Assembly: GCF_024464185.1 (NCBI RefSeq)
Contig: NZ_JANHAU010000002.1
Span: 248,001-312,000, forward strand
Length of the DNA: 64,000 nt
Reading direction: 5' to 3'
From: Haloarchaeobius salinus
GTDB taxonomy: Archaea > Halobacteriota > Halobacteria > Halobacteriales > Natrialbaceae
Positions 12,276-39,815 of the stretch are shown here, piece by piece. The position numbers and the translations under genes were made by a program. Every line of letters begins with the position of its first letter. The stretch's first letter is position 1. A model generated the notes under the pieces. It ran no database searches. It had not been told where the DNA came from and worked only from the letters and a program-made list of their open reading frames with translations.

Positions 12276-12297
12276 AGGGAGGTACATACTCCTCCCT
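12276..12297. terminator. Hairpin after the ZIP transporter gene
   Basis: AGGGAGG and CCTCCCT form a perfect 7-bp stem around an 8-base loop, 14 bp past the ZIP stop codon. No T run follows, so it may instead be an mRNA 3'-end or regulatory structure. Confidence 0.4.
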
Positions 12298-12355
12298 CGA
12301 CTACGGTACACACACGCAGGAGAGGCTTTTACCCGTCGAGAACGTCCCGTCTAGT

Positions 12356-12682: not shown

Positions 12683-12736
12683 GCCGTCGCGCAAAACCAC
12701 ATCGTACTTACTGTCCCCCGTCGTCCCTCCGACCGA

Positions 12737-13486: not shown

Positions 13487-13510
13487 ACCGTCACCGACGA
13501 CCGCCCGTGC

Positions 13511-13517
13511 TTAAATA
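13511..13517 (+). promoter_or_regulatory. TATA box of the lipid kinase gene
   Basis: TTAAATA, 23-29 bp before the ATG at 13540, in a GC-rich surround. The spacing implies a leaderless transcript. Confidence 0.65.
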
Positions 13518-13539
13518 GCAGGCCGCCGTCCAACCGGGT

Positions 13540-23238: not shown

Positions 23239-23393
23239 TCTAGGCGACACACGATTCTCCACCGTTCGGGACTCGGGTACTCTCGCCGGTCGAGGATCCG
23301 GGCTGATCTTCGACGCAGTTCGACGGTTCTGCGGGTATCTGGCACCTTCCCAAGAGTATTAATCGGTGCCGTGGGTACGTGGAGCAACGACGC

Positions 23394-25322
23394 ATGACCG
23401 ACCCCATCCGGGTCCTGCACGTCGACGACGAGCCGGCGTTCCTGGCCCTCACCAGCGAGTTCCTCGCTCGAGAGCTCGACGCAGTCGAGGTCGAGACGGC
23501 GACGAGTGCGACGGAGGCACTGGACCGTCTCGACGCGTTCGACCCGGACTGCGTGGTCAGCGACTACCAGATGCCCGAGATGGACGGGCTGGAGCTGCTG
23601 GAGGCGGTCCGCGAGCGGCGGCCGGAGCTACCGTTCGTCCTCTTCACCGGACACGGCTCCGAGCAAATCGCGAGCGACGCCATCTCGGCGGGCGTGACGG
23701 ACTACCTCCAGAAGGGGAGCGCGAACGAGCAGTTCCAGCTGCTCGCGAACCGGATCCGGAACGCGGTCGAGGCACACCGCACCCAGGCGGCGTTCGAGGA
23801 GTCCGAACGGATGTTCTCGACGCTCATCTCCAACCTGCCGGGCATGGTGTACCGGTGTCGGAACGCCCCCCAGTGGCCGATGGAGTTCGTCAGTCAGGGC
23901 TGTCTGGACCTCACCGGCTACCAGCCCGCGGTGCTCGAACGCGGGGAGGTGGTCTGGGGCGAGGACGTCCTCCATCCGGAGGACCAGGAGATGGCGTGGG
24001 GGACCGTCCAGAGCGCCCTCGAGGACGAGGAGTCGTTCGAGGTCACCTATCGCATCCGCCGGCGCGACGGGGCGGTACGCTGGATGTGGGAGCAGGGCCG
24101 CGGCGTGTACGGCGACGGCGGCGAGCTGCTGGCGCTCGAGGGGTTCATCACCGACGTGACCGAGCGCGTCCGCTACGAGCACCGGCTCGACGCGCTCAAC
24201 GAGGTGCTCGGCCGACTGCTCGAGACGGCGGACAGACACGAGTGCGCGTGGGTCGCCGTCGAGGCCGCCTGTGACTCGCTGGAGTTCCCCATCGCGTCGG
24301 TCAGGCTGTACGACGCGGACACGGACGAACTGGAGCCGGTCGCCGTGACCGACGCCACGGCGACCGAGCTGGCGGAGCGACTGGCGTTCCCGGGCGAGAA
24401 CGGCCCCGCCTGGGACGCCTACACCACGGGCGAGGTGCAGTGGTATCCCGACATCGCCACGGAGTCGGTGACCGTCGAGTCCCACGCGGACATCCGGTCG
24501 CTGCTCGTCCTCCCGCTCGGGGAGTACGGGACGCTCGTGCTCGCGTCGCCGACGCCCGACGACTTCGCGGAGACCGACCACAACCTCGCGCGCATCCTCG
24601 CGGCGAACCTGCAGTCGGCACTCGACCGCGCCGACCGCGAGCTGGCGGTCCGCGAGCGCGAGCGCGAACTCCGCGAGCAGAACGCCCGGCTGGAGGAGTT
24701 CACGAACATCGTCAGCCACGACCTGCGGAACCCACTCGCCGTCGTCCGTGGGCAGCTCGAGCTCGCGCGCGAGACCGGGTCCGACGAGCACTTCGACCGT
24801 GCGGAGGCGTCGCTGACGCGGATCGAAAACCTCGTCTCGGATATGCTCACGCTCGCCAAACAGGGGATGGTCGTCGGCGAGACCGAGGCGCTCTACCTCG
24901 AGGTCGTCGCCCGGCGCGCCTGGGGCGCGGTCGAGACCGACGGGGCCGACCTCGCGGTCGACGGCGACCTCGGGCTGGTCGCCGACCGGGGGCGACTCCA
25001 GCAGCTCCTCGAGAACCTGTTCGCCAACGCGGTCGAGCACGGGTCGGGAGACGACCCGTCATCCGACGGCACGGTCAGCATCACCGTCGGCGAACTCGAC
25101 GGCGCGTCGGGCTTCTACGTCACCGACGACGGCCACGGCATCCCCGCCGCCGAGCGTGATTCGGTGTTCGAGCCCGGATTCAGCACCGACGACCAGGGTA
25201 CTGGCTTCGGGCTGGCCATCGTCCAGCAGATCGCCAGCGCCCACGGCTGGTCGGTCGACGTCACCGCGAGCGACGCCGGCGGTGCCCGGTTCGAGTTCAC
25301 CGATGTCGAACTGACCGGGTGA
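23394..25322 (+). CDS. Receiver-PAS-GAF hybrid histidine kinase
   Basis: A 642-residue cytoplasmic sensor kinase. Order: receiver domain (1-125; acidic pair D11-D12, phosphoacceptor D57 in VVSDYQMP, conserved Lys in DYLQKGS), PAS (about 135-260), GAF (about 275-415), coiled coil, dimerisation domain with the phospho-His H442 in VSHDLRNP, and HATPase (about 530-640; N box in LLENLFANAVEHG, G boxes DDGHGIP and GTGFGLAI). All catalytic residues are intact, unlike the kinase at 41438. The ATG at 23394 is chosen because AGTATTAAT about 32-40 bp upstream is the likely TATA box. The signal sensed is unknown. Confidence 0.88.
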   Translation: MTDPIRVLHVDDEPAFLALTSEFLARELDAVEVETATSATEALDRLDAFDPDCVVSDYQMPEMDGLELLEAVRERRPELPFVLFTGHGSEQIASDAISAGVTDYLQKGSANEQFQLLANRIRNAVEAHRTQAAFEESERMFSTLISNLPGMVYRCRNAPQWPMEFVSQGCLDLTGYQPAVLERGEVVWGEDVLHPEDQEMAWGTVQSALEDEESFEVTYRIRRRDGAVRWMWEQGRGVYGDGGELLALEGFITDVTERVRYEHRLDALNEVLGRLLETADRHECAWVAVEAACDSLEFPIASVRLYDADTDELEPVAVTDATATELAERLAFPGENGPAWDAYTTGEVQWYPDIATESVTVESHADIRSLLVLPLGEYGTLVLASPTPDDFAETDHNLARILAANLQSALDRADRELAVRERERELREQNARLEEFTNIVSHDLRNPLAVVRGQLELARETGSDEHFDRAEASLTRIENLVSDMLTLAKQGMVVGETEALYLEVVARRAWGAVETDGADLAVDGDLGLVADRGRLQQLLENLFANAVEHGSGDDPSSDGTVSITVGELDGASGFYVTDDGHGIPAAERDSVFEPGFSTDDQGTGFGLAIVQQIASAHGWSVDVTASDAGGARFEFTDVELTG

Positions 25323-25373
25323 ACGAGTCACGCCGACCGAACGCTTTTCGGCGGGCCCGCCGACGATCAATCC

Positions 25374-25883
25374 ATGTCAGAGCACGTCCTCCGCCCGGCC
25401 GAGCGGGCGGACGTTCCGGGTGTCCAGCGCGTCGCCCGCGCCGGCTGGCACGCCGCCTACGACGACGTCATGGACCCCGACACCGTCGACGACTGCATCG
25501 ACGACTGGTACGACGCCGAGACGCTCGTCGAGGCCATCGAAGACGACGACGTCGACTACCTCGTCGCCACGGTCGACGACCGGGTCGTCGGCTACGCGTC
25601 GGTCGGCCCGACGGGGGACGACCACCCCGCGTCGGTCGCCGGGCTGTACAGCATCTACGTTCACCCCCGCTGCTGGGGGCAGGGCATCGGGACGTCGCTG
25701 TTCGAGCGCTGTGTGACCCGGCTCCGCGAGCGCGGCTTCGAGCGGCTCGTCCTCCGGGTCATCGCCGATAACGACGTCGGCATCTCGTTCTACCGGCGTC
25801 ACGGCTTCGAGCGGACCGGGGAGGAGACGGTCGAGCTGAAGGGCCAGCCCCTCACGGAGTGCGAGTTCGCCCGCGACCTCTAG
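25374..25883 (+). CDS. GNAT family N-acetyltransferase
   Basis: A 169-residue acetyltransferase with a complete GNAT fold. The acetyl-CoA-binding motif is HPRCWGQGIGTSLFE (Q/R-x-x-G-x-G), and the C-terminal strand-helix NDVGISFYRRHGFER is typical of the RimI-like/phosphinothricin-type subfamily. The substrate is unknown. It starts 51 bp after the kinase gene and may be read through from it. Its TAG stop shares the four bases CTAG (25880-25883) with the stop of the convergent DUF4397 gene. Confidence 0.87.
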   Translation: MSEHVLRPAERADVPGVQRVARAGWHAAYDDVMDPDTVDDCIDDWYDAETLVEAIEDDDVDYLVATVDDRVVGYASVGPTGDDHPASVAGLYSIYVHPRCWGQGIGTSLFERCVTRLRERGFERLVLRVIADNDVGISFYRRHGFERTGEETVELKGQPLTECEFARDL

Positions 25884-26776
25884 AGCAGCTGCATCGTCGT
25901 CGTCGTCGTATCGGTCGCGAGCAGCAGGTCGAACGGCTCGTCACCCGGCGCGTTCGCCGGCTCGAGGTAGCCCACGGCGAACGCCGAGTACGCCGTCCCG
26001 CCCTCGAGGTCGACGTCGAACGTCGCGACCGGATCGCCCCCGCTCGCGGGCCGCACCTCGAGTGTGTACGACCCCGCGGGGACCGTCGTGTAGTCCGTCT
26101 GCTCGCCGTAGCCGAGGTTCTCGAACAGCGCGTCACCGCTCGACGCGACCGTCACCGTGACCGGCGGGGCGTCCGGGGACGCGTGGAACAGGCCCACCGC
26201 CGCCTCGTCCGAACCGACCGACGGCGGTGCATCCTCGAGTACGCCGACCGCGAACTCGTCAGCCGTGAGGTTCCCGAACGCGACCACGGTGTAGCTCGTG
26301 TCCGCCTGGACCGTCACCGTGCTATCGAACACGACGGTGCTCTCGTCGCCCGCCGCAGTGATGCGGACCGCCCGTTCGCCCGCCGGTGCCGTCTGGTAGT
26401 CGCTGATAGTTCCGAACGACACATCGGTCAGCATCGCCTCGCCGTCGACGTACACGTCCACGGCCGGCGCGTCCGGTGACGCGTGGACGGCCCGCAGCCG
26501 TCCCGAACCGCCGGTCGTCGTCGTCTGCTCCTCGGTGGTCCCCTGTTCGGTCGTCCCCTCCGTCGTCTGTTCCGTCGTGCCATTGGCCGTCCCCTCCGTC
26601 GTCTGCATCCCGCCATCTGTCGTGCCCGCGGTCGTCCCCATCGGCCCGGTCGTCGTGCCGTTCCCGGTCCCGTTGCTGCCACCATCGCCCGTGTCCGCAC
26701 AGCCCGCCAGGGCCGCTGTCGCGAGTCCAGCCGTCAGCTGAAGGACGCGTCGCCGTCGGAGGCCATCTGGTTTCAT
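25880..26776 (-). CDS. Tat lipoprotein with two DUF4397 repeats
   Basis: A 298-residue exported lipoprotein. MKPDGLRRRRVLQLTAG carries the twin-arginine motif and LAGC is the lipobox (about residues 23-26). A Thr/Gly/Glu linker with short TTEGT repeats (about 30-90) spaces two DUF4397 domains off the membrane: LRAVHASPDAPAVDVYVDG starts the first and VGLFHASPDAPPVTVTV the second. DUF4397 domains are small beta-sandwiches common in secreted prokaryotic proteins; function unknown. The internal ATG at 26776 is chosen because only it gives a proper Tat signal. It is divergent from tRNA-Phe. Confidence 0.85.
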   Translation of the reverse strand: MKPDGLRRRRVLQLTAGLATAALAGCADTGDGGSNGTGNGTTTGPMGTTAGTTDGGMQTTEGTANGTTEQTTEGTTEQGTTEEQTTTTGGSGRLRAVHASPDAPAVDVYVDGEAMLTDVSFGTISDYQTAPAGERAVRITAAGDESTVVFDSTVTVQADTSYTVVAFGNLTADEFAVGVLEDAPPSVGSDEAAVGLFHASPDAPPVTVTVASSGDALFENLGYGEQTDYTTVPAGSYTLEVRPASGGDPVATFDVDLEGGTAYSAFAVGYLEPANAPGDEPFDLLLATDTTTTTMQLL

Positions 26777-26914
26777 ACGGACCAAACCGTCGGGAGATGG
26801 ACGTGTAAGTCTGGTTCCGGGTTCACCGGCAGTTAGGGACCAGTAGGCGGCGGGACGTCGTGCCTTCTGCAACCGACTCCCGACTGCTGGGTACCCGCTG
26901 GTGATTCGAAATCC

Positions 26915-26921
26915 TTTTTTA
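26915..26921 (+). promoter_or_regulatory. TATA box of tRNA-Phe
   Basis: TTTTTTA, 27-33 bp ahead of the tRNA 5' end. Confidence 0.65.
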
Positions 26922-26947
26922 GTGCATCCACCGAAGTCAGAGTGCGC

Positions 26948-27021
26948 GCCGCCTTAGCTCAGACTGGGAGAGCACTCGACTGAAGATCGAGCTGTCCCCG
27001 GTTCAAATCCGGGAGGCGGCA
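26948..27021 (+). tRNA. tRNA-Phe (anticodon GAA)
   Basis: A complete 74-nt tRNA without encoded CCA. Acceptor GCCGCCT/AGGCGGC, anticodon stem CTCGA/TCGAG with loop CTGAAGA, T arm CCCGG-TTCAAAT-CCGGG, discriminator A. It forms the left border of the accessory-looking segment that carries nitrile hydratase. Confidence 0.97.
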
Positions 27022-27222
27022 TACGAATTTCGCGTCGATTTTCCCCGAGCCTTCTCGCTCACCTGAACTCGAACTGTTCCTTTTCCGCGAGCGCGGCGAC
27101 CGAGTAGCTACAAGATCCGGCCGGGGTCGTCTTTCGGAAGTTCACGATCCAGGTGGCGACACCTCTCTGTGGCTGTCACTCTCGGCGGATGGCGTGGAGG
27201 AATCGAGAAGGAGCTCGGATGC

Positions 27223-27558
27223 TCACGCGGACGCTTCGAGACAGTTCTCGTGGACGGTCTCGTTGTTTTCGTTCGGCGTTCGGGCTTGTCCCGTGACGAT
27301 GGGTTCCTCGCAGATCGCACAGCGCAGCTTTTCGGTCTCGCTCGTTGGTTCGGTGCCGAGGCTCTCCGAGAAGTTTTCCTTCACGTCGCCGGATCCGGTC
27401 GACGCGCTGTATCCGAGCGCAACGGCACCGATTCCCGCCAGCACGCCGCGTGGTCGCTTGCCCTTCCGGAGCGACCAGAGGGCGAATACTGCCAGGCCGG
27501 CGGCGAAGAGTTTGCGAGCGAGCCCGTCGCGATCGTCGAGGTTCTCTGTCAGCTCCAT
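27223..27558 (-). CDS. Small two-helix membrane protein with C-terminal Cys motif
   Basis: A 111-residue protein. Residues about 15-55 contain two hydrophobic helices around a basic turn (FALWSLRKGKRPRGVLAGIG), like DUF2892-type inner membrane proteins. The C-terminal half is cytoplasmic or external and holds CAICEEPI and, 20 residues on, HENCLEA, a likely C-x2-C...H-x2-C zinc site. The start at 27558 (MELTENLDDRDG) is preferred over frames upstream because the sequence before it lacks family-like composition. Function unknown. It lies downstream of the nitrile hydratase genes on the same strand, 234 bp away. Confidence 0.65.
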   Translation of the reverse strand: MELTENLDDRDGLARKLFAAGLAVFALWSLRKGKRPRGVLAGIGAVALGYSASTGSGDVKENFSESLGTEPTSETEKLRCAICEEPIVTGQARTPNENNETVHENCLEASA

Positions 27559-27792
27559 ACTCTCGTTTCGTGCTCCGTACCCTTGTACTCGTCCGTGCCT
27601 CGGGATGAGATCGGATGGCGCCACCTGAGAGCGGCCGGTTACCCCGGCAGTAGTCCAGCCGTCGGGTTCGGTGCTGTCTCCACGTGTCGCGTTCCGTGGT
27701 CGAGCGTCGGTGGCGGCGAAGTGTTCGAACGGACAGCAGGGGACGGTACGCTACCGCCGCGTCGAAGACGGAATGGCGTCGGAGAGGTCCGG

Positions 27793-28962
27793 TCAATGGG
27801 TGCGGTCGCCGGCGACGAACTCCTCGGCCGTCCGATCGCCGGCGGCGAATTCGGCCGCTCGAGCGTCGATTGCGTCGGACTCGAGGGCGTCGTGAGAGAC
27901 GAGCAAGCGCTCGAGGGCGGTGTGCCACTGGTCATAGTAGATGCGTTCGGTCGTGGCGGCGGTTTCGCTCGTTTCGCTTCTGGCTCCGGTTCCGGTGCCG
28001 GGACCGTCTCGCTCGCGGTCGCCGTCGGTGGCGTAGGCGTCGGTCGGCGTCGCCTCGACGGCATCGATCAAGCGTCGCTGGAACGCCGACCAATCGAATC
28101 CGTCGCCCTCGTCGTACAGGGCGACGGTCACGCCGAAGGCTCGGGCCTGCCACGGTTCCGAGAACGTCGGCTCCGCGTCGACGCCGAGCAGGTCCGCGAA
28201 GGCGCTGGTGGGGTCGGCGTGTCCGCCGTCGGCGGCTGGTCCCGAGGTCGCGTCCGCGCCCCCGTCCGCCGAGCCGTGACCGGCGAGTCGCTCGACGCCG
28301 ATCATCGCGTCGCGGGTGACGAGTTCCGCGAGTTCGTCTTCGTCGTAGCCGCCCGTTCCCTCGGGGCGTCTCGGGAGCACCATGTACCTGATCTCGGAGC
28401 TGGAGTCCCAGACGTCGACGTCGATCCCGTCGTCGAGTTCGAGCCCGAACTCCTCGAGGACGGCTCGCGGCTCCCGGACCATTCGCGATCGATAGGACGG
28501 CGTCTTGTACCACGTCGGCGGCAGCCCGAGTAGCGACCACGGATAGCACGAACACAGCGTGCAGACGACGGCGTTGTGGACGTCTTCGGTGTTCTTCTTC
28601 ACGTCGATGTGCTGGACGCCGACGTCGAAATCGAACGCCTCGAGTGCAGCGGGGGCGTCCTCGAGGAGTCGCTCCTCGAAGTCGGGATCGGTCCACGCCC
28701 GGGCGACGACGCGAGCCCCGTTCTTCGGGCCGATATCGCGTTCGTAGGAGGCGATCGCCTCGTCGATCGCGTCGGTCGAGACGAGCCCCTTCTCGACGAG
28801 CAGCGACTGGATCGCTCGAACGCGGGGCCGTGGATCGGCCGCGGTTTCGTCGTTTTGGTGGTGGTCGTCGTGGTGGTGATGGTCGTCGTGCTGGTCGTGA
28901 CTGTGTTCGTTTTCGTGAGCGTGGTCGTCGTCGTCGTGGCTGTGCCCGTGCTCGTCGGTCAT
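27793..28962 (-). CDS. nthA: Nitrile hydratase alpha subunit fused to its activator, cobalt type
   Basis: A 389-residue fusion. Residues 1-35 contain 14 histidines in an acidic tail, a likely metal store. Residues about 45-235 are nitrile hydratase alpha subunit with the metal motif VCTLCSCYPW (C134, C137, C139); the Thr after the first Cys marks the cobalt type. Residues about 260-375 match the separate activator/accessory proteins that load the metal (FSEPWQARAFGVTVALYDEG, then YYDQWHTALERLL). The enzyme hydrates nitriles to amides. The start overlaps the beta-subunit stop by 4 bp. In bacteria the activator is normally encoded by its own gene, so the fusion is unusual. Confidence 0.9.
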   Translation of the reverse strand: MTDEHGHSHDDDDHAHENEHSHDQHDDHHHHDDHHQNDETAADPRPRVRAIQSLLVEKGLVSTDAIDEAIASYERDIGPKNGARVVARAWTDPDFEERLLEDAPAALEAFDFDVGVQHIDVKKNTEDVHNAVVCTLCSCYPWSLLGLPPTWYKTPSYRSRMVREPRAVLEEFGLELDDGIDVDVWDSSSEIRYMVLPRRPEGTGGYDEDELAELVTRDAMIGVERLAGHGSADGGADATSGPAADGGHADPTSAFADLLGVDAEPTFSEPWQARAFGVTVALYDEGDGFDWSAFQRRLIDAVEATPTDAYATDGDRERDGPGTGTGARSETSETAATTERIYYDQWHTALERLLVSHDALESDAIDARAAEFAAGDRTAEEFVAGDRTH

Positions 28963-29648
28963 CGTTCCGCCTCCGCGGGTCGCAGATACGGTTCCCAGAG
29001 ATCGACGTGGATCGTGTCGTCGGGGTCCTCGGCGTCGGGACCCCACACCTCGGCGGCGTCGAAGGCGACGGTGTACAGCGGCTCGTCTCGTTCCTCGCCG
29101 TGGGCGTTGGCGTCCGGGAAGACGTGGTTTCCGTGGACGGTTCGGATCTCGCCGGTCGTTCGCCGGACGTACCGAGGGCAGCGCGTGTGTCCCTCGGGGT
29201 GGTCGTTGCGCACGCGAACCGCGTCTCCTACGCCGAACCGGGGCTCGTCGTTCGGCCGATCGAACGACGCCGGCCGCTCGAACGCCGCTCTCACTCGCTC
29301 GGCGAGGTCGGGATCCTGCCGTTCGGGGACCAGTTCCCCGGGGTCCTCGAGGTCGCGAGCCCGCTGGTGGGCGGCCTCGATCTCGTCCTCGGTGAGGTGG
29401 CCCTTCTCCACGAGGTTCCGCTCGAGGCTCGCCAGCCAGCGTTCGAAGTACGACGCCGCGAGGTAGTCCACCGGATCCATCCGCTCGATTCCGTAGCGAC
29501 TCTCGTCGATGTTGTAGATGCCCTGCGGTCGTATCGCGCGCACTAACGCGAAGACGACCCGTTCCCAGTCCGCGTGGAACTGGGCCTCATCGTCGACGGG
29601 GACAGCCCCGAATCCGTGCATCCCGCCCATGTCGTGGATGCCGTTCAC
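28959..29648 (-). CDS. nthB: Nitrile hydratase beta subunit
   Basis: A 229-residue beta subunit. It opens with the near-invariant MNGIHDMGGMHGFG, starting at a GTG codon (29648), and has the usual C-terminal SH3-like barrel (FGVGDAVRVRNDHPEGHTRCPRYVR, an unbroken family signature in parts, to the end). It pairs with the alpha subunit to form the active site. The order beta-alpha is that of cobalt-type operons. CTATTTGCG on the minus strand about 28-35 bp upstream is the likely TATA box, making this the first gene of the operon. A loading His tail is on the partner, not here. Confidence 0.93.
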   Translation of the reverse strand: MNGIHDMGGMHGFGAVPVDDEAQFHADWERVVFALVRAIRPQGIYNIDESRYGIERMDPVDYLAASYFERWLASLERNLVEKGHLTEDEIEAAHQRARDLEDPGELVPERQDPDLAERVRAAFERPASFDRPNDEPRFGVGDAVRVRNDHPEGHTRCPRYVRRTTGEIRTVHGNHVFPDANAHGEERDEPLYTVAFDAAEVWGPDAEDPDDTIHVDLWEPYLRPAEAER

Positions 29649-29930
29649 GCGAATCGCATTCGCCGCGTTCGCGCAAATAGCTTTGGACGATCATGGGCTA
29701 CGAGGACGAAATTCGCGAGCTCTTGCGGGAGTACTTCACCGAGACTAACCCCGTCCATCGTTCGAGCTGTCCCCTCTCCCTGCGAGCGCAGCGAGCGGGG
29801 AAGCGAGACGCCAGTCTCGCGTTTTTCAAATCCGGCGGCGTCACGTATCGGACGTCGGTCTCGTTCAGCAGGGCGTGAAATCCGGATCGGTACCTGTACG
29901 GGATGAGAATCAGGGCTGGTAGCGTGGGGG
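29649..29930. other. Gap between nitrile hydratase and serine hydrolase genes, with a possible gene remnant
   Basis: The right-hand gene ends and the left operon starts here on the minus strand. On the plus strand an ATG at 29693 opens MGYEDEIRELLREYFTETNP, which looks like real protein for 20 codons and then turns into Arg/Ser-rich noise, as if a gene had been cut. The stretch also holds the motif GCGAGCGCAGCGAGC near 29783 and a textbook terminator at 29803-29826. Confidence 0.5.
29803..29826 (+). terminator. Intrinsic-type terminator
   Basis: GCGAGAC, loop GCCA, GTCTCGC, then GTTTTT: a perfect 7-bp GC-rich stem with a T5 tail on the plus strand. No intact plus-strand gene precedes it, which supports the idea that the ORF starting at 29693 is a remnant. 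Confidence 0.6.
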
Positions 29931-32198
29931 TTAGACGATGTCGAGGGTGATTGCGAGGTCCACGGCGGCGTTTTTCACGTGGTCGTTGTCTTCGGATTGT
30001 CGGTTCGATTGGACGGCGACGACGACGTCGTCTTCGGGGAAGACCATGAGGGAGGCGTTCCCACCGGTATTGCTCCCGTCGTGCCCGACCCTGTCTATCC
30101 CCCAGAGGGTATCGGTGTGCCACCCGAGGGCTCGCTGTGGCTCCACGTCGGGATTGTACGGCTCCCACATCTCGTCGCGACTACTCTCCTCTAGTATCTG
30201 GTTGTCGAGGACGAGTTGCCCGAGGCGGGCGAGGTCGGTGACGTGGGATTCGAGACCGGCACCGAGGACCGACCAGCTGTTGCTGTCGACGTACTCCCAG
30301 GCGTCGTCGTCGGGGCCGGGGTCGCCCTCTTCGAGGGCGACGTTCTTCGCCCAGGCGACGTAGTCGTCGTCGTCCTCGCCGGGATAGGTCTGATCGACGT
30401 CGTCGTCGAACTCGTAGATCCGGGCTCGATGCGGGTCGTCCTCGCGGCGGTCCTCTCGCCGGAGGGAGTGGAGGTCGAATGGTTCGCTGAGTTCCTCGCG
30501 AACGAGGTCGTCGACGACCGTCCCGGTCGCTTCCTCGTACGCCGCGCCGAGTAGCGTGTAGCCGGCCGTACTGTACCGGTACGCCTCGCCAGCAACGCAC
30601 TCGCTCGCGTCTGGCCCGAGATCGATGTCGTCCTCGTCTACTTCGCCGAACTCCAGTGACTTCTCGTCCTCGCCGTCACCGTCCTCGTCCAGCTCGACGG
30701 GTTCTTCGATGAGTTCCTCGTCCCAGTAGTCGAATGCTTCGGCGGCGTCGACCGCCGACTCGTAGTGATCGTACTCGCCAGTGGTCACTGTGGACTCGGC
30801 GTAGTGCGGGATACAGCCGTGGTGCGCGAGCAAGTCCGCGAGCGTGTGCTCGTGTGCGTCGCCGAGCGGGAGGTAGTCGCTCGTTTCGTCCGCCGTGAGG
30901 TCGACGTCACCGGCTTCCTGCAGGCGGAATCCGAGGAGTCCCCCGATCGGCTTGCTGACCGACGCGAGCCGATAACGCGTGCGGGCGTCGGCCGGGCGCT
31001 GCTCGTCGATGTCGCGGTAGCCGAACCCGCGCCGGTAGACGTTCACGCCGTCCTGGTAGATGGCTGCGCTGATGCTCGGGAGGTCGTGGTCGGTGATGAA
31101 GTCGAGCAGTTCGTCGTCGGCGTCCGCTCGATCCGCCCAGCTGGGGCGCATCGAGTTTTGGCGCCACGCGGCCGCGTGACTTCCTGCACCGCCGACCGCG
31201 TCGACGAGGGACAGACTCACGGGTCGGTAGCCTCGATCGTGCATCTCCCGGACCGTGTCGCTGTACGCCGTTCTCGTGAGGTCGACGTGCGCGTCCCACG
31301 CGCGACCGTCGCCGTCGTCGGTGCCGTCCTGACTGCCCTGGAACGCGTTCCGGTCGGTGTTCTCCACCCAGATGGCCGCGACCGCGCACGTCCCGTCGTT
31401 GGCGTACACCGAGACGTCGACGAGCCGGTAGCCCTCGCTTCGTTTCGAGTCGTTCGCGGACTCGAACTCGTCGACGGTCATGTCGCGTGCGAGCTCCCAC
31501 TCGCGGTCGTCGACGTTCTCGACCCACGCCCAGGCGTACTTGACTTCCTCCGCCCACTCGTCCCAGTATCCCTCGACGTCGACGGGCACGAGGGCGGGGT
31601 CGAGCTGGGTTTCGTAGTTCGCGGCCATCTCGTCGAACTGCCCGTCGAGGACGACCTGTGACGACCGCCACTCGAACTCGTCGGGGTTCTCGAGCCAGAT
31701 GCCGCCGTAGCATCGACCGTCGTCGCCCACGGTCTCGTCGGGGAGGAAGTACTGTACCTGGTCGACGAGGCGGTAGTCGGCTTCGAGGTCGTCGTTGACT
31801 CCCTCGAACTCGTCGTACGCGAGATCCCAGTGTGCTTCCCAGTCGAAGTGCTCTGAGAACTCCACGTGTCTGACGTTCTCGTGCCAGACGCCGTAGTAGT
31901 CCCTGGTGGTCGTATCGACGCCGAGTTCCACCAGCATGAGTCCGTCCGCTCGGGCGTCGTCGTTCATCTGCTCGAATCGTTCGCTGGTCGTGGCCCGATC
32001 GGCGACCCAGTCGACGGATTCGGGATCGAGGAGCGGGGTTTCGGCTTCGTTGGCTATCTCCTCGACGGCGTCGAGCCCGGACTGGATCGAACAGCCGGCC
32101 GTCGCAGTCACCCCGGCTAGTACACTCGACGTCTTCAGGACGTCCCGCCGCGAGAGCCCGGAACCGATCCGGCTCCCGTCGGCGTCTCGTTCGTGCAT
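29931..32198 (-). CDS. Secreted polyglycine hydrolase-like serine hydrolase (tandem repeats plus beta-lactamase fold)
   Basis: A 755-residue Tat lipoprotein: SRRDVL at 16-21 and lipobox TAGC ending at C36. Residues about 70-350 hold five copies of a roughly 55-residue repeat, each with a (W)xENxD-type turn: YYGVWHEN, CYGGIWLEN, YAWAWVEN, AVAAIWVEN, HAAAWRQN. This is the pattern of the polyglycine hydrolase/BTRD1 repeat. Residues about 360-755 are a class C beta-lactamase-like serine hydrolase with S413-V-S-K416, a Y542-S-T motif and the late GHDGSNTGG. Fungal relatives cleave glycine-rich linkers of plant chitinases; the substrate here is unknown. Long acidic insertions (about 500-530) fit halophilic life. 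Confidence 0.85.
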   Translation of the reverse strand: MHERDADGSRIGSGLSRRDVLKTSSVLAGVTATAGCSIQSGLDAVEEIANEAETPLLDPESVDWVADRATTSERFEQMNDDARADGLMLVELGVDTTTRDYYGVWHENVRHVEFSEHFDWEAHWDLAYDEFEGVNDDLEADYRLVDQVQYFLPDETVGDDGRCYGGIWLENPDEFEWRSSQVVLDGQFDEMAANYETQLDPALVPVDVEGYWDEWAEEVKYAWAWVENVDDREWELARDMTVDEFESANDSKRSEGYRLVDVSVYANDGTCAVAAIWVENTDRNAFQGSQDGTDDGDGRAWDAHVDLTRTAYSDTVREMHDRGYRPVSLSLVDAVGGAGSHAAAWRQNSMRPSWADRADADDELLDFITDHDLPSISAAIYQDGVNVYRRGFGYRDIDEQRPADARTRYRLASVSKPIGGLLGFRLQEAGDVDLTADETSDYLPLGDAHEHTLADLLAHHGCIPHYAESTVTTGEYDHYESAVDAAEAFDYWDEELIEEPVELDEDGDGEDEKSLEFGEVDEDDIDLGPDASECVAGEAYRYSTAGYTLLGAAYEEATGTVVDDLVREELSEPFDLHSLRREDRREDDPHRARIYEFDDDVDQTYPGEDDDDYVAWAKNVALEEGDPGPDDDAWEYVDSNSWSVLGAGLESHVTDLARLGQLVLDNQILEESSRDEMWEPYNPDVEPQRALGWHTDTLWGIDRVGHDGSNTGGNASLMVFPEDDVVVAVQSNRQSEDNDHVKNAAVDLAITLDIV

Positions 32199-32539
32199 AC
32201 CGTCACTCCTCGAGGCGATATCTACCCGGATCGGTCCTCGATCGCTGTCCCCCGCTCCCCGCGGTTCGTAACGGATTCATCTAGCCATAAAACATTCTCA
32301 TGTGACAAGTAGATTTGCCCCAGTGGCGGTGGCGGCCGTCCGATACGGGGAGGAGTCGGGGGGATTGGTCCGCGGTGCTCTTCCGTCCCGAGCAAAGCGG
32401 CTTCCAGGGGACGGGCGTGAAGCGGGGAGTCGTGGAGACGAACACCGGATGGTCGTCGACGACTCGCGGGAGACCCACCAGAGCACGGGCGGTCGTTCGT
32501 GACCGAGACGTTCGGTCGAGCCGGACCCCGGACCGCGTC
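32199..32539. other. 341-bp gene-free stretch
   Basis: Holds the promoter of the serine hydrolase gene (candidate boxes on the minus strand: TAGATATC about 20-27 bp upstream of its start, and TTTTATGG at 32284-32291 in the AT-richest part). The rest, up to the stop of the regulator gene, contains no protein-like frame, repeat or RNA gene that I can see. It probably marks the right edge of the accessory segment. Confidence 0.5.
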
Positions 32540-33319
32540 TCAGGCGACGGCTTCCGGCACGTCCAGCGGCTCCGCATCGCGCCGGTACTTGCGGTACAGT
32601 TCGGCAGCCCACTCGCGGGCGTCGGGGTCGTCGGTCACCACGGAGGCGACGGGCAGGGAGGTCTCGCTGTCGAAGCCGCCGACGATGACAACGTCGTCGA
32701 TGATGCCCATGGTGAACGGGAGGCCGGGGTGGGTGTAGAGCGACGGTGCCTCGGCGCTGGCGATGGTGTCGAACGCCTCTTCGGACGCGTTCTGGTCGGC
32801 TTCGAGTGCCAGCGGCGTACAGATGGACTCGAAGTCGACGTCGTTCCGGGCGTGCTCGACGCCCAGCTTGGTGACCGCGGGCGGGCAGCCGGCGACGACC
32901 AGGGTCCGGCAGCGGTCGAACGACTCGAAGTGTTCGAGCCAGGGTTCGACCGGGGCGCTCGGGTTCTGTGGCGTGGCGACGGCGAGTTCGGCATCGGCGA
33001 AGCGGTGGATGTTTCGCGTGAGTTCCGGTGCGGAGAGCTGGGAGAGCAGGGGTTGCAGCCGGTCGATGGCGGCCATGGAGCGCTCGAACCGTTCGGCGGC
33101 ATCGATGGCGGCACAGCCCGCTCCGGTCGCGCGGTAGCCCGTCGGCGTCTGTTCGAGCAGTCCCTCCTCGGTGAGCGCGGAGGTCCGGCGGTAGGCCGTC
33201 GCGCGGGAGATGTCGAGTTCGTCCTGCAGGGTCGACCGGTCCACCGACCGGTCGCGGGTCGCTTCGAGCACCGGGACCCGGTTCAGCACCGTCAGATACT
33301 CGTGTTCGTGTTGGTTCAT
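32540..33319 (-). CDS. Winged-helix transcriptional regulator with C-terminal MetF-like sensor domain
   Basis: A 259-residue regulator of the type found widely in haloarchaea and methanogens. Residues about 10-75 form a winged helix (recognition helix LDISRATAYRRTSALTEEG). The C-terminal part (about 120-255; CRTLVVAGCPP, SLYTHPGLPFTMGIIDDVVIVGG) resembles the methanogenesis-regulator FilR1/DUF1724-like sensor domain. The ligand is unknown. It is divergent from the large surface protein gene, and a near-perfect inverted repeat (33371-33387) lies between them, so it may control that gene and itself. Confidence 0.8.
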   Translation of the reverse strand: MNQHEHEYLTVLNRVPVLEATRDRSVDRSTLQDELDISRATAYRRTSALTEEGLLEQTPTGYRATGAGCAAIDAAERFERSMAAIDRLQPLLSQLSAPELTRNIHRFADAELAVATPQNPSAPVEPWLEHFESFDRCRTLVVAGCPPAVTKLGVEHARNDVDFESICTPLALEADQNASEEAFDTIASAEAPSLYTHPGLPFTMGIIDDVVIVGGFDSETSLPVASVVTDDPDAREWAAELYRKYRRDAEPLDVPEAVA

Positions 33320-33370
33320 GTGAAATTCTCGAAGTTACGGGTGGTAAGCGTTTCGGCAGAATCTCACGGG

Positions 33371-33387
33371 GTGAAACATCGTCTCAC
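33371..33387. promoter_or_regulatory. Inverted repeat 7+3+7, probable operator
   Basis: GTGAAAC-ATC-GTCTCAC has one mismatch between arms. It ends 8 bp ahead of the TATAA of the surface-protein transcript and about 50 bp ahead of the divergent regulator start, the usual place for an archaeal repressor or activator site. Confidence 0.45.
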
Positions 33388-33395
33388 TCGATGCC

Positions 33396-33400
33396 TATAA
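33396..33400 (+). promoter_or_regulatory. TATA box of the surface-protein transcript
   Basis: TATAA, 26-30 bp ahead of the ATG at 33426, the start of a short leader ORF, and about 97 bp ahead of the surface-protein start. Confidence 0.55.
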
Positions 33401-33425
33401 TCCGGGGTCGGCCCTCACCGTCTAC

Positions 33426-33500
33426 ATGGATGCGACAGGGACGACGGGAGCTGCCGGCTCCGGCCGGCAGCGGCGACCTGCAGGGAGGAGGATTGCGTGA
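33426..33500 (+). CDS. Possible 24-codon leader ORF overlapping the surface-protein start
   Basis: ATG 26 bp after TATAA begins a 24-residue peptide (MDATGTTGAAGSGRQRRPAG and four more). Its TGA lies at 33498-33500 and overlaps the GTG start of the surface-protein gene at 33497 (GTGA). The layout suggests leaderless translation of the peptide followed by re-initiation on the main gene, helped by GGGAGGAGG at 33483-33491. The peptide has no known relative, and the coding status is unproven. Confidence 0.4.
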   Translation: MDATGTTGAAGSGRQRRPAGRRIA

Positions 33501-36500
33501 CGACGAATCCAGGGGGGAGATGGGGGGTGGTCACGTTCTCGTTGCTGCTGGTTGCGTCGATGCTCGCGGCCGCGTCCGTCGGCGTCGTCGGCGTCGCTGG
33601 CGCATCCGACAGCTCGCCGGCACCGGACTGTAGTACGGTCTCGTGGACGACACAGACCGTCTCTGGGGAGACGTACTACGAGGTCGACAGCCTGGAGACG
33701 CTCCAGTGCATCGAGAGCCAGGGGCTCGACAGCAACTACATCCTGACCGACAGTATCGACGCGAGCGAGACCGCGACCTGGAACGGCGGGAGCGGGTTCG
33801 ACCCGATCGGGGACAAGAACAACGAGTTCACCGGGACCTTCGACGGCAACGATCACACGATCTCGGGACTGACCATCGACCGGGGTGGGACGTACTCCGT
33901 TGGCCTGTTCAGTGAGGTTGGGTCGGGCGGAACGATCACGGCGGTTGGTCTCGAAGGCGGATCCGTTACCGGCGCGAGACGGACCGGACAGCTCGCCGGG
34001 TTCAACGATGGGACGGTCGAGGACTCCCACGCGACTGGCGAAGTCTCCGGGACCGAGCGGGTCGGCGGCCTGGTGGGCCGAAACGATGGGACGATTCGTC
34101 GCTCCTACACGAGCGGGGAACCCACTCGCGGTACCGATTGGGTCGGCGGACTGGTCGGTTTCAATCGGGGGACGGTCAATCGCTCCTTCGCTGCACGCGC
34201 CGTCGTCGGAGAGGGGGGCAGTTTCGATGGCGCGTCTGCTGGCGGACTCGTCGGCGTCGTCTCCACGGGAACGATCGAGGATTCCTACGCCACTGGCACG
34301 GTAACTGCAAGCTGGTTCGTCGGTGGACTGCTCGGGTCGTACCAGGCGGACGACGGGGGAACGACTCGGCGCTCCTACGCCACTGGAGCCCTCAGTATCG
34401 GCGACGAGAGCCAGGGGATCGGTGGAATCGTCGGTGGTTCCGCTGTTAGTGATACCACCGTGGAAAACGCCTACTGGGACGTGGGAACGACGAACGAGGC
34501 GAGCGTCAGTGGGCAGTCGATCGAAACTGTGACCGGCGTCAGCGGCTTCGGGTCGACGGCGGACACCGCCCCCGCTCCCGAGATGCAGGGCGCGAGCGCG
34601 GAGACGAACCTGCCCGGTCTCGACTTCACGAGCACGTGGGAGACGGTCGAGAGCGAGGACCCGGACGCGGCGATGGACGGCTATCCGATACTGCGGGGGG
34701 TCAACCGGACGGTCCAGCTGCGAGCCCAGGGCAACACGCCGGACACTGCTCCGACGGCGACGGACTGCGCCGGCCTCTCCTGGACGACTCGGGAGATCTC
34801 GGGCGCGACGTACCACGAGGTCGACAGCCTGTACAAACTCCAGTGTATCGAGCAGCAGGGACTGGGGAACGACTACGTGCTGACCGGAGACATCGACGCG
34901 GGTCCGACGGCCGGATGGAACGGCGGCAGCGGCTTCGAGCCGCTCGGTGACTCCGATACCGGATTCACGGGCACCTTCGACGGCGACGGCTACACGATCT
35001 CGGGACTCACCATCGACCGACCGGGGGCGGAGGAGGTCGGTCTGTTCGGTTACGTCGGTTCGGCGGGGACGATAGCGAACGTCACGCTTGAGGGCGGTAA
35101 CGTCACCGGACAGTTCCGGGTCGGACAGCTAGTCGGGCTTAATTACGGGACGATCAAAGATTCTGCTGCTACAGGTCCCACCAACGGGAACAAGTACGTT
35201 GGCGGACTGGTCGGCCGGAACGATGGCACGATTCGTCGCTCCTCGGCCACTGGGCAAAGTACCAGTGAGAACAGTAGGGCTGGCGGGCTAGTTGGCCAAA
35301 GCTTCGGAACGGTCGACCGTTCCTACGCCACTGGAGACGTCGACGCAGACACGCTTGCTGGCGGGCTGGTCGGCCACAACGAGGGGACGATAGCGGATTC
35401 CTACGCCACCGGAACGGTCACCGCAGGGTACACTGCCGGTGGGCTGGTCGGGAAGAACACCGGTGCGGATCCTAGTGGTATTGGTCTCGGGACAGTCAGG
35501 CGCTCCTACGCCACCGGGACCGTCACTGCCACTGAAGGCGACGCGGAGGCCGGTGGGTTGGCTGGTCGCAACGAGCGACCGGACGGCGACGGCACTATCG
35601 AGAACTCCTACTGGGACGTGGGAACGACGGGTCAGGAACGCGCGGGCGGAGACGGTGGTATCCTGACCGACAACGCTGGTTTCGGTTCGGTGGGCGATAG
35701 CACCCCGGCGGCGAACGCCACGGGCGACGCCGTCTACGACAGCATGCCCGCGCTGGACTTCGACGCGACGTGGACCGTCACCAGCGACTATCCCCGCCTC
35801 CAGTGGGAGGGCGTCGACGTACTCGCCGTCGAGTCGCTCGGTGCCACGGACCCGGCAGTCGGGGAGAACGGGACCGGGAGCATCACGGTGACGGCGACGG
35901 ACAGCGAGGGGGGTGCCGTCGAGGGCGCGACCATCGAGGTGACGAACGCCGACGGTCTCCCGGGACTCTCCGGCGAGGCGGTCACCGACGCGAACGGGCA
36001 GGCGACGTTCCCGTTCACCGCGGGGATGCCGGACGACCACGCCCCGGAGTTCGCCTGGAAGTACGACGACGAAGTCGGCGAGACCGTCGCGACGCCGTCG
36101 TCCGTCACCGTCCTCGACGCGCCGGACGTCGACTCTATCACGCGGACCAGTGCGAGTCCGACCAGCGCCGACAGCGTCGACTTCGACGTGACGTTCTCCG
36201 AGAGCGTCGTCGGTGTCACCGCGGACGACTTCGTCGCGACGCAGGCGGGCGGTGACGTGTCCGGGACCGTCTCGGCCGTAACTGGGTCCGGGAGCACGTA
36301 CACCGTCACCGTCGACTCCATCATCGGCGACGGCGACCTCCGTCTCGACGTGACCGACGACGACAGCATCACGAGCGACGGGACCGGCGTCGAACTGGGC
36401 GGTGTGGGAACGACCGGGGCGGGCGACGGTGGGTTCACCGGCGGCGAGACGGTCGCCATCGACAATACGGCCCCGACCGCGGACGCTGGTTCCGACCGGA

Positions 36501-38035
36501 CCGTCGACGAGGGAACGACGGTGACGTTCGATGCCTCGAACTCCTCGGACGACGACGCGATCGCGGCCTTCGAGTGGGCCTTCGGCGACGGCTCGGCGAA
36601 CGCGACCGGCGCGACGCCGACGCACACGTACGACGACGCCGGCGACTACACGGTCACCCTGGCCGTCACCGACGCGAGCGGCAACACCGCCACCGAGACG
36701 GTGACCGTGGCGGTCCAGCGGGACGACGACGGCGCTGCCCCGGACGACTGGAACGCCATCCCGACCGCGAACGCCGACTCGTACAGCCTGTCGGCGGGGG
36801 CGCGCCTCGACGTGGCGACCGGGGATGGACTGCTGGCGAACGACAGCGACCTCGACGGCGCGGTGAGCGACCTCACCGTCTCGGTCGTGGACGGACCGAC
36901 CGACGGCTCGCTCGACCTCGGCTCCGATGGGTCGTTCACGTACACGCCCGACGACGGCTTCACCGGCACGGACGTGTTCACCTACGCGGTCGCCGACCTG
37001 GAGGGCGCGACCGACAGTGCGACGGTCACACTCGTCGTCGACGATGGTGTCGAACGCACCGTGTTCGAGGACCCGGAGACGATCCGCCGGCTCCTCGAAC
37101 TGCCGGAGAACACGACCCCGACGTACGCGGAACGGGTCTCGGTGACGGCGGGGCCGTCGGGCTCCCCGTCGGTCAACTTCACGTCGAACTCGACCGTCTC
37201 CTTGGTTCGGTTCGGCCCCGACACCGACGCGAGGGGCAACCTCACCGTGACGGCGTTCGCCACGAACGCCTCGCTCCCCGACGGCGTCCCCGGACGGGTG
37301 CTCGTGCCGCTCCGGCTCACCGGCTCGCAGGCGGTCGAGAACACGTCCGCGACTGTCCGGATGCGGGTCCCACGGGCCGAGCTCCGGGCGGCCGGCGCGA
37401 ACGCATCCGCAGTCCGGGTCGCGCACTACGCCGGGGGCACGTGGGAGTTGCTGAACGCGACCGTCGTCGACGAGACCGACGATTCGGTGACCGTCGAGTT
37501 CACGACGACCGGCTTCTCGCCGTTCGCGGTGACCGCGGTCGGGACCCCCGAGGCGACGTTCTCGGCGCTCCCGGCCGCGGTGACGGCCGGCGACGAACTC
37601 GCGCTCGATGCGAGCGAGTCGTCGACGCCGTACGGCGACCTCACGGGCTACGAGTGGTCGGTCGCCGGACGGGAACTGTCCGGCGAGACCACGACGGTCA
37701 CGCTCGACGAACCGGGCGAGTACACGGTCGCGCTGACGGTGACGAACGACGCCGGTCGCACGGCCACCGTGAGGGAGACGGTGACCGTCGAGGAGTCAGA
37801 TCCCCCGACGGCGACGGCGACGGCGATGCCGACGACCGCGGCTGACACGCCGACCGAGGCCACTGGCGGGCCAACCTCCCCGACGAGTCCGCCGGCGGAC
37901 GGTGGGACGCCGGCCGAGACGTCCGCTATTGTGCCCGAAACCACACCGAACGGGTCGGGCGGGCTCGGCCTCGGCCCCGCCGTCGCCATCGTGGCGATGC
38001 TGGCGCTCTCGGTCCTCGCAGCACGGCGTCGCTGA
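33497..38035 (+). CDS. Large surface adhesin-like protein with GLUG repeats, Ig-like, PKD and C-terminal anchor
   Basis: A 1512-residue exported protein. After a signal peptide (about 1-35) two related modules (about 45-415 and 415-760) each open with a D-C-x-x-(L/V)SWTT segment and carry GLUG repeats (for example VGGLVGRNDGTIRRSYTSG). Then come an Ig-like bacterial domain (about 775-870), a second Ig-like domain (about 880-985), a PKD domain (about 990-1070), a cadherin-like domain (about 1085-1180), a pre-anchor domain, a second PKD domain (about 1350-1430) and a Thr/Pro-rich stalk. The end is a hydrophobic helix plus ARRR, like archaeosortase signals, though PGF itself is absent. A strong Shine-Dalgarno precedes the GTG start. 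It probably mediates adhesion or surface structure. Confidence 0.85.
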   Translation: MTTNPGGRWGVVTFSLLLVASMLAAASVGVVGVAGASDSSPAPDCSTVSWTTQTVSGETYYEVDSLETLQCIESQGLDSNYILTDSIDASETATWNGGSGFDPIGDKNNEFTGTFDGNDHTISGLTIDRGGTYSVGLFSEVGSGGTITAVGLEGGSVTGARRTGQLAGFNDGTVEDSHATGEVSGTERVGGLVGRNDGTIRRSYTSGEPTRGTDWVGGLVGFNRGTVNRSFAARAVVGEGGSFDGASAGGLVGVVSTGTIEDSYATGTVTASWFVGGLLGSYQADDGGTTRRSYATGALSIGDESQGIGGIVGGSAVSDTTVENAYWDVGTTNEASVSGQSIETVTGVSGFGSTADTAPAPEMQGASAETNLPGLDFTSTWETVESEDPDAAMDGYPILRGVNRTVQLRAQGNTPDTAPTATDCAGLSWTTREISGATYHEVDSLYKLQCIEQQGLGNDYVLTGDIDAGPTAGWNGGSGFEPLGDSDTGFTGTFDGDGYTISGLTIDRPGAEEVGLFGYVGSAGTIANVTLEGGNVTGQFRVGQLVGLNYGTIKDSAATGPTNGNKYVGGLVGRNDGTIRRSSATGQSTSENSRAGGLVGQSFGTVDRSYATGDVDADTLAGGLVGHNEGTIADSYATGTVTAGYTAGGLVGKNTGADPSGIGLGTVRRSYATGTVTATEGDAEAGGLAGRNERPDGDGTIENSYWDVGTTGQERAGGDGGILTDNAGFGSVGDSTPAANATGDAVYDSMPALDFDATWTVTSDYPRLQWEGVDVLAVESLGATDPAVGENGTGSITVTATDSEGGAVEGATIEVTNADGLPGLSGEAVTDANGQATFPFTAGMPDDHAPEFAWKYDDEVGETVATPSSVTVLDAPDVDSITRTSASPTSADSVDFDVTFSESVVGVTADDFVATQAGGDVSGTVSAVTGSGSTYTVTVDSIIGDGDLRLDVTDDDSITSDGTGVELGGVGTTGAGDGGFTGGETVAIDNTAPTADAGSDRTVDEGTTVTFDASNSSDDDAIAAFEWAFGDGSANATGATPTHTYDDAGDYTVTLAVTDASGNTATETVTVAVQRDDDGAAPDDWNAIPTANADSYSLSAGARLDVATGDGLLANDSDLDGAVSDLTVSVVDGPTDGSLDLGSDGSFTYTPDDGFTGTDVFTYAVADLEGATDSATVTLVVDDGVERTVFEDPETIRRLLELPENTTPTYAERVSVTAGPSGSPSVNFTSNSTVSLVRFGPDTDARGNLTVTAFATNASLPDGVPGRVLVPLRLTGSQAVENTSATVRMRVPRAELRAAGANASAVRVAHYAGGTWELLNATVVDETDDSVTVEFTTTGFSPFAVTAVGTPEATFSALPAAVTAGDELALDASESSTPYGDLTGYEWSVAGRELSGETTTVTLDEPGEYTVALTVTNDAGRTATVRETVTVEESDPPTATATAMPTTAADTPTEATGGPTSPTSPPADGGTPAETSAIVPETTPNGSGGLGLGPAVAIVAMLALSVLAARRR

Positions 38036-38065
38036 CCGGGCCCGGATGACCGGTACAGCCGGGGT

Positions 38066-38986
38066 TCATACGCCGGCAGCGCCGGGGCCGAGCGTCACCA
38101 GCGCAGCGCCGATGACGACCAGCACGGCCCCCAGTACGACCCCCCGCGTCACGCGTTCCAGATCTCTGAGGAGGAAGTACGCGAAGACGGTCGTGAACAG
38201 TGGTGCGGTCGACGCGAGCGACTCGACGATGGCGACGCGGCCGGCCGGCAGCGCGAGCGCGCCGAACAGCGAGAGCAGGGCGACCGCGGTGAGACAGCCG
38301 CTGACGGCGAAGTAGCCGTAGGAGCTGCGGTCGGCCGAGCGGAAGCCCTCCGTTCCCCGGACCGAGGCGTAGGCGAGGAAGACGAGGAGCGCGCCGGCCT
38401 CGTTGAGCGCGACGGCCTGGAGCACGGTCGCGCCGCCGTCCTCCAGCCCGAACCGTCTGAGGACGTTGCCGAACGCGAACAGCGCGCCCGAGCCGAGGGG
38501 GTAGACGAGGTCGCGGGGCTCCCAGCCGGCGAGGTCGCCGCCCTTCGCGAGGCTGAGGACGACGAGGCCGACGACGAGCACGACGATGCCGACCGCGGTG
38601 CTGGCCGTGACGGGTTCCCCGAGCAGACCGAGGGCGAACGCGGCCCCGAACAGGGGGCGGGCGCTCACCACCGCGCTGTTGATGCTCGCGCCGACGCGGT
38701 CGACGCCGACGAAGATGGCGAGCCGGCCGAGTGCGGTCCCGGTCGCGCCGGCGAAGAGGAACAGCCCTGCGATGGCGGGGTCGAGCCCCGCGAGCAGTGC
38801 GGGGCCGCGGAGTGCGAGCAGCGCGAGGACGAACAGCGAGAGGTCGACGACGACCACGGTGAGCGCCGCCTGCAGCGCGGTGCCGTCGGCGGACATCCCG
38901 CGCTTGTCCAGGACGGGGGTGAACCCCCAGATGACGGCCGGGAGGAGCGCCAGGAGGTACACCGTGACGTCGGCGTCGACGACCAT
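38066..38986 (-). CDS. EamA/DMT family transporter
   Basis: A 306-residue membrane protein with ten predicted helices in two five-helix halves, the EamA drug/metabolite transporter layout. The second half repeats the first (TAVGIVVLVVGLVVLSL versus GVVLGAVLVVIGAALVTL). The substrate cannot be inferred. The gene converges on the surface-protein gene with a 30-bp gap and is divergent from the HAD hydrolase gene. The ATG at 38986 is the only start that leaves the first helix complete. Confidence 0.85.
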   Translation of the reverse strand: MVVDADVTVYLLALLPAVIWGFTPVLDKRGMSADGTALQAALTVVVVDLSLFVLALLALRGPALLAGLDPAIAGLFLFAGATGTALGRLAIFVGVDRVGASINSAVVSARPLFGAAFALGLLGEPVTASTAVGIVVLVVGLVVLSLAKGGDLAGWEPRDLVYPLGSGALFAFGNVLRRFGLEDGGATVLQAVALNEAGALLVFLAYASVRGTEGFRSADRSSYGYFAVSGCLTAVALLSLFGALALPAGRVAIVESLASTAPLFTTVFAYFLLRDLERVTRGVVLGAVLVVIGAALVTLGPGAAGV

Positions 38987-39105
38987 ACTCGGCGTGCGGC
39001 CGGCGGCGGGAAGAAGGTACGTCTTGCGGCGATGACGGCGAGGTGGTGTCGTGTGGGACGGCCCGCCGTCGAAAGGCTGAACAGCCCGCTGGTCGTCCCT
39101 TCGAC

Positions 39106-39786
39106 ATGGAGACCGGCCCCGCCGCAGTCACCCTCGACCTGGACGACACACTCTGTCGGTACGACCGCTCGACCGCGGACCTGCTCGCACTCGCCTTCGA
39201 CCGGGCCGACGTCGAGCCCTTCTTCACCGCCGCCGAGTTCGTGGCGACGATTCCGACCGTCACCGGCGAGAGTCCGCTCGACCTGCGTCGGAAGTGCTTC
39301 AGAGTGCTCGCCGCGGAGAACGGGCGGTCGGTCGCCGTCGCGGACCGGCTCGCGGAGCAGTACCCCGAGCGTGACCCGACCGCGGTCTCGTTCCTGCCCG
39401 GCGCTCGCGAGGCGCTCGACTCGCTCGCCGACCACCATCGGCTCGCGCTCGTCTCCAACGGCGAGCCGTCCCACCAGCGAGCCAAGCTCGAGACGCTCGG
39501 TATCAGCGGTGCGTTCGAGACGACGGTGTTCGGGACGCCCGAGACCGGCGTCAAACCCGACCCGGAACCGTTCTACCGTGTGTTGGACGCACTGGGCGTG
39601 CAGTCGGAGCGAGCAGTTCACGTCGGGAACTCGCTCGCCTCCGACGTCGTGGGTGCCCAGGCCGCGGGGATACCCGCGGTGTGGCTCCGTGCGGACGGTT
39701 CGGCTGACGACGAGACGGTACCGGAGTACGTCGTCGACGACCTCGCCGAACTGCACAGGCGGCCGTTCCCGTGGGAGCAGGGGTGA
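39106..39786 (+). CDS. HAD-superfamily hydrolase
   Basis: A 226-residue HAD phosphatase-type hydrolase. Motif I is TLDLDDTLC (nucleophile D11 and D13), motif II is VSNGEPSHQ, motif III is KPDPEPF and motif IV is GNSLASDVVGAQ. The cap (about 20-90) is helical, as in the phosphoglycolate phosphatase/haloacid dehalogenase subgroup. Phosphatase activity is most likely; the substrate is unknown. Start chosen at 39106 because the nucleophile then lies at residue 11, as usual. Confidence 0.88.
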   Translation: METGPAAVTLDLDDTLCRYDRSTADLLALAFDRADVEPFFTAAEFVATIPTVTGESPLDLRRKCFRVLAAENGRSVAVADRLAEQYPERDPTAVSFLPGAREALDSLADHHRLALVSNGEPSHQRAKLETLGISGAFETTVFGTPETGVKPDPEPFYRVLDALGVQSERAVHVGNSLASDVVGAQAAGIPAVWLRADGSADDETVPEYVVDDLAELHRRPFPWEQG

Positions 39787-39815
39787 CGTCAGGACATCCC
39801 GTAGAGCCGACGCCG

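Follow-up and report, generated by a model that had tools for sequence, protein, structure and literature searches.

A predicted surface hydrolase of Haloarchaeobius salinus joins the repeat domain of fungal polyglycine hydrolases to a LACTB-like active site

Fungal polyglycine hydrolases, namely Fvan-cmp (PDB 7tpu), Bz-cmp and Es-cmp, are secreted proteins in which an N-terminal repeat domain is joined to an S12 catalytic domain. The published fold of the N-domain consists of five strand-helix-strand-strand (EHEE) repeats of about 44 residues each (PMC9912923). Its function is openly acknowledged to be unknown, and the substrate positioning or exosite binding raised by the authors of the structure is speculation on their part (PMC9912923). 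The catalytic domain of Fvan-cmp contains the motifs SVSK and YSN, and the third S12 motif is missing, a bulky Phe in the active site occupying the position of its Gly (PMC9912923). The same domain order, with five repeats in most cases, is found in a main lineage of bacterial BTRD1-S12 proteins (Myxococcus, Paenibacillus, Saprospiraceae and others). Two further S12 enzymes, neither of which has BTRD1 repeats, are relevant here: LACTB (7v21, 7ulw), a mitochondrial, filament-forming protein with the motifs SISK, YST and HTG (PMC9815587), and the archaeal peptidase Pab87 (2qmi), which has a C-terminal CubicO domain, a YxN motif and an HxG third motif, and for which, as a D-peptidase, the processing of D-peptides from the environment has been proposed (PMC2651629).

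Within the window (the whole stretch of DNA analysed, 64,000 nucleotides or 64 kb), a complete and uninterrupted open reading frame of 755 codons with an ATG start (29931-32198, minus strand, as are all features of this gene given below) encodes a predicted secreted lipoprotein hydrolase of 755 amino acids, here called P0001. Pfam recognizes both BTRD1 (PF17660; 82.2 bits against a cut-off of 23, E 2.4e-23) and Beta-lactamase (PF00144; 148.4 bits, E 3.6e-43) in P0001, and two BTRD1 stretches each clear the Pfam threshold alone. P0001 is the sole BTRD1 match in its own genome, and BTRD1 matches were found in 0 of 14 control genomes; we therefore conclude that the match is not due to chance. A preliminary description of this DNA had noted an architecture known from fungal polyglycine hydrolases and from BTRD1 proteins of bacteria, and P0001 indeed shares with them a five-repeat N-domain and an S12 domain. 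The protein also looks exported, in keeping with its earlier designation as an extracellular Tat lipoprotein: the putative signal peptide (residues 1-36; 32091-32198) visibly contains a twin-arginine motif, S16-R17-R18-D19, and a lipobox that reads T-A-G-C36, and the scores in two TAT profiles fall slightly below both cut-offs (18.3 versus 22.7, and 16.5 versus 16.7). Judged by these sequence features, P0001 would reside outside the cell, anchored via C36. The mature protein is acidic, with a pI of 4.05 and a D+E content of 25%.

Structure models support the assignment of the N-domain. The full-length AlphaFold model, built from an input alignment of 28 sequences, contains five consecutive strand-helix-strand-strand units followed by an S12 fold (mean pLDDT 75.7), and its low-confidence parts are mainly acidic insertions. 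A model of the N-domain only, from an alignment of 33 rows, reached a mean pLDDT of 80.5 and a pTM of 0.82. The five E-H-E-E units correspond to residues 64-107 (31878-32009, with W105HEN), 120-170 (31689-31841, W168LEN), 177-227 (31518-31670, W225VEN), 234-279 (31362-31499, W277VEN; the best Pfam BTRD1 stretch, at 233-280) and 301-347 (31158-31298, W345RQN); three of these repeats were missed by Pfam and recovered in the models. The earlier count of five WxEN-type repeats is thus correct as to number, but only four read WxEN, the fifth being of the form WxQN. When the N-domain model was compared with the PDB, only the polyglycine hydrolase 7tpu matched significantly (E 3.8e-7): the model superposed on residues 13-269 of this structure with a Z of 26.1 and an rmsd of 2.9 over 249 residues, and the next row had a Z of 5.2. 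Similarly, 7tpu was the only significant match to a sequence profile of the N-domain (2.9e-20). With a score above the curated cut-off and a five-repeat E-H-E-E fold, P0001 belongs to the BTRD1 structural-repeat family. Prediction of half-barrel repeats and their superposition on the fungal enzymes had been proposed as a check on the preliminary description; since five repeats are modelled and superpose on 7tpu, the objection that a structure without repeats would have raised does not apply. Stand-alone BTRD1-repeat proteins of about 316 amino acids that contain no hydrolase domain occur in Cyanobacteria, mostly Nostoc (L041-L043, L046, L047, L055, L056, L059 and L060), a distribution that points to an independent function of the repeat domain.

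The catalytic domain (residues 355-755; 29934-31136) exhibits the fold and the SxxK, Y-x-N/T and K/H-x-G motifs of S12/class C beta-lactamase-like proteins. P0001 is not a true class C beta-lactamase: it scores 23 bits, and the NCBIfam class C cut-off is 415. All three S12 catalytic motifs are intact. The first, S413-V-S-K416 (30951-30962), would supply the nucleophile and general base; the second, Y542-S-T544 (30567-30575), is of the LACTB type (PMC9815587), the fungal polyglycine hydrolase having YSN instead; and the third, H706-D-G708 (30075-30083), is missing from the fungal enzyme (PMC9912923). The SVSK and GHDGSNTGG sequences previously noted in this domain were located at residues 413-416 and 705-713, respectively. 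In addition, a pair of cysteines specific to the clade of P0001, C462 of the sequence GCIPHY (30813-30815) and C534 (30597-30599), may form a disulfide. By structure, the domain superposes about equally on Pab87 (Z 36.0), a DL-peptidase (Z 35.5) and LACTB (Z 35.3). The sequence profile of the P0001 clade has LACTB as its best match (3.3e-25), and its best stretch of match to 7tpu falls within the repeats, whereas P0002, a main-lineage protein from a congener, reaches 7tpu via the catalytic domain (2.5e-22). P0001 does not have the active-site signature of the solved fungal enzyme (YSN and a lost third motif), and it further differs from the fungal enzymes in its Cys pair, its apparently LACTB-like branch, its predicted lipid anchor, its acidity and its archaeal host. 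Given a LACTB-like site with YST, HDG and a Cys pair, compared with YSN and no third motif in Fvan-cmp, we conclude that P0001 has a polyglycine-hydrolase scaffold and an active site of a different type.

The relatives of P0001 fall into two lineages. A profile scan of species genomes yielded 73 loci from many bacterial phyla, and the nearest full-length relatives came from a Saprospiraceae MAG (L019, 4e-65) and a genome of the same order (L112, 1.4e-62). Like P0001, these Bacteroidota proteins contain five BTRD1 repeats, all of them strong, and an S12 domain with SxSK, YST, HxG and the Cys pair, and they are collinear with P0001 over its full length; P0001 differs from them by its acidic insertions and putative Tat signal, and identity is about 30%. 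In a catalytic-domain tree, built without 7tpu itself, P0001, L019, L112 and the stand-alone protein L115 form one clade (support 100/99), and P0002, P0003 and other bacterial BTRD1 proteins fall apart from it. The repeat-domain tree recovers the same clade at 98/94. Both YST in motif 2 and the Cys pair are present in 4/4 members of this clade and in 0/61 others; the main-lineage proteins have YxN and no Cys pair. To judge from sequence, 7tpu appears to resemble the main lineage, which includes P0002 of the same archaeal genus. Within the repeat tree, the branch leading to the N-domain of P0001 is very long (3.9); this domain has thus evolved very fast, and its binding role may therefore have changed or weakened.

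BTRD1 is rare in Halobacteria, occurring in 3 of 391 sampled genomes: that of P0001, that of the congener with P0002, and that of Halobacteriales archaeon QH_6_64_20 (P0003, L037). The word archaeal, by which the preliminary description had singled out this protein, is true of P0001 but not unique to it, as the two other haloarchaeal genomes encode BTRD1-S12 proteins of the other lineage. Haloarchaea thus contain both lineages of BTRD1-S12 proteins. A single ancestral haloarchaeal gene, with P0001, P0002 and P0003 together, was rejected (p-AU 0.0002, in a tree with long branches). An origin of the catalytic domain from haloarchaeal stand-alone S12 proteins was also considered and rejected: these proteins sit in other clades. 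No orthologue of P0001 was found in five congeners when six genomes of the genus were compared, and exact peptide patterns taken from P0001 alone retrieved no close relative from genome contigs. A plasmid collection gave only weak S12 matches without repeats, and a search for viral relatives of the N-domain gave none that was convincing.

The gene lies in a strain-specific segment of 5.4 kb (27024-32474), which breaks at the 3' end of a tRNA-Phe gene (26948-27021) and holds P0001 together with nitrile hydratase. On the minus strand, the order is a regulator of the HVO_A0261/FilR1 type, P0001, nitrile hydratase beta and a nitrile hydratase alpha-accessory fusion. In the closest congener (L159), the flanking DNA is 95% identical over 32475-39869 and 88% identical over 23332-27023, and 27024-32474 is absent; between the tRNA-Phe and the same regulator, this congener instead contains a GmrSD-type restriction gene, a DUF7845 gene and a phage-type integrase (L159:7236-12508). 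A second congener (L160) has no matching DNA. Because the closest congener carries a different insert at the same site, and both nitrile hydratase and P0001 are absent from it, we conclude that P0001 is part of an acquired, exchangeable segment. The region from the tRNA-Phe 3' end to 32474 has the appearance of an integration hot spot. At a classical att site, the tRNA-Phe end would be repeated where the segment ends; no such copy was found, and the longest shared stretch, of 13 bases, lies inside the segment. The GC content of the P0001 gene is 65.6%, compared with 69.3% for the window. Members of the genus can do without this gene, as its absence from congeners shows.

The neighbouring genes are of separate interest. 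The nitrile hydratase alpha gene (27793-29046, minus strand), whose product has a CTLCSCY metal motif, lies next to the beta gene (28959-29648, minus strand), and the alpha subunit is fused at its C-terminus to an accessory (activator) domain (TIGR03889, 57.7 bits against a cut-off of 46). Nitrile hydratase is likewise missing from the five congeners, and in the open-access literature we found no paper that names it together with haloarchaea. On the other side, a plus-strand gene (33497-38035), divergent from the regulator (32540-33319), encodes a surface protein of 1512 amino acids in which GLUG, PKD and cadherin-like domains are accompanied by a hydrophobic anchor at the C-terminus; it is present in the 95%-identical congener and therefore lies outside the acquired segment.

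The domain combination of P0001 is a known one, of which this protein represents a divergent and horizontally acquired form. Its repeat domain is that of polyglycine hydrolases and its active site is closer to that of LACTB; it is therefore very likely that P0001 acts as a secreted peptidase or esterase. Our preferred reading, which we regard as probable, is that P0001 is a Tat-exported, lipid-anchored, acidic S12 hydrolase, most likely a peptidase or amidase, that was acquired horizontally. Tat export and the lipid anchor would place this acidic, halophilic protein on the outer cell surface. In S12 enzymes with three intact motifs, acyl-enzyme catalysis by Ser is expected; in P0001, Ser413, activated by Lys416 and Tyr542, would attack the carbonyl to give the acyl-enzyme, water would then resolve this intermediate, and the strand bearing H706-D-G708 would hold the substrate. 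The five-repeat N-domain would probably serve to keep the substrate, a polymer or a protein, close to the active site. The source of the gene, now in the variable segment at tRNA-Phe, was probably bacterial and related to the Bacteroidota homologues.

Esterase activity would be less likely than peptidase or amidase activity. Against the preferred reading stands the fact that esterases and enzymes specific for D-amino acids are numerous among S12 proteins; the fold of P0001 is also common to the esterases EH7 and EstCE1. The nearest sequences and structures, however, are mostly peptidases, and a large, conserved five-repeat domain would suggest a macromolecular substrate; we therefore think it unlikely that P0001 is a generic extracellular esterase whose BTRD1 repeats are incidental. 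As a special case of the preferred reading, P0001 might, like Pab87, be a scavenger enzyme, a D-peptidase or muropeptide hydrolase that trims D-amino-acid peptides from bacteria in the brine. Pab87 is the top structural match, with the others tied within 1 Z unit, the third motif is HxG in both proteins, and the gene has bacterial relatives. Nevertheless, motif 2 of P0001 is YST rather than YxN, the sequence profile favours LACTB, and no peptide transporter was recognized adjoining the gene, whose neighbours encode nitrile hydratase; we consider so specific a role rather improbable.

The preliminary description had pointed to a peptidase or esterase acting on glycine-rich surface proteins; apart from the shared architecture, we found no support for the glycine-rich substrates: the catalytic domain appears to be of another S12 branch, and no polyglycine protein adjoins the gene. 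Runs of seven GGN codons do exist in relatives and in the genome itself (32 overlapping matches), but none lies within the 64-kb window, and six-glycine runs were found in 2/76 loci of relatives. In the congener, P0002 (L010:6612-8744, minus strand) is divergently paired with a surface subtilase (8953-13794, plus strand) with a linker of ten glycines close to the C-terminus, an adjacency that, estimated from counts of GGN runs, would arise by chance in about 5% of cases (about 1/20). On these counts, we rejected a general association of BTRD1-S12 genes with polyglycine proteins. P0002, as a main-lineage protein, and its neighbouring subtilase form a candidate enzyme-substrate pair for a true haloarchaeal polyglycine hydrolase. 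For P0001 itself, the five-repeat and S12 architecture and the N-domain fold match Fvan-cmp, but with YST and HDG in its active site and a profile that meets 7tpu best in the repeats, it is most unlikely to be a true polyglycine hydrolase, that is, an endopeptidase that attacks Gly-Gly bonds in the glycine-rich linkers of surface proteins of archaea.

If P0001 is just another secreted S12 hydrolase, it is of modest interest only. A bolder proposal, which we put forward as speculative, is that the five repeats form a portable module for holding substrates, which became fused on more than one occasion to different S12 hydrolases, and that P0001 is a surface endopeptidase of undescribed specificity, distinct from both polyglycine hydrolases and LACTB. 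With the same N-domain placed on a LACTB-type active site, a comparison of the two lineages asks which part of these proteins sets specificity, and P0001 offers a halophilic test protein.
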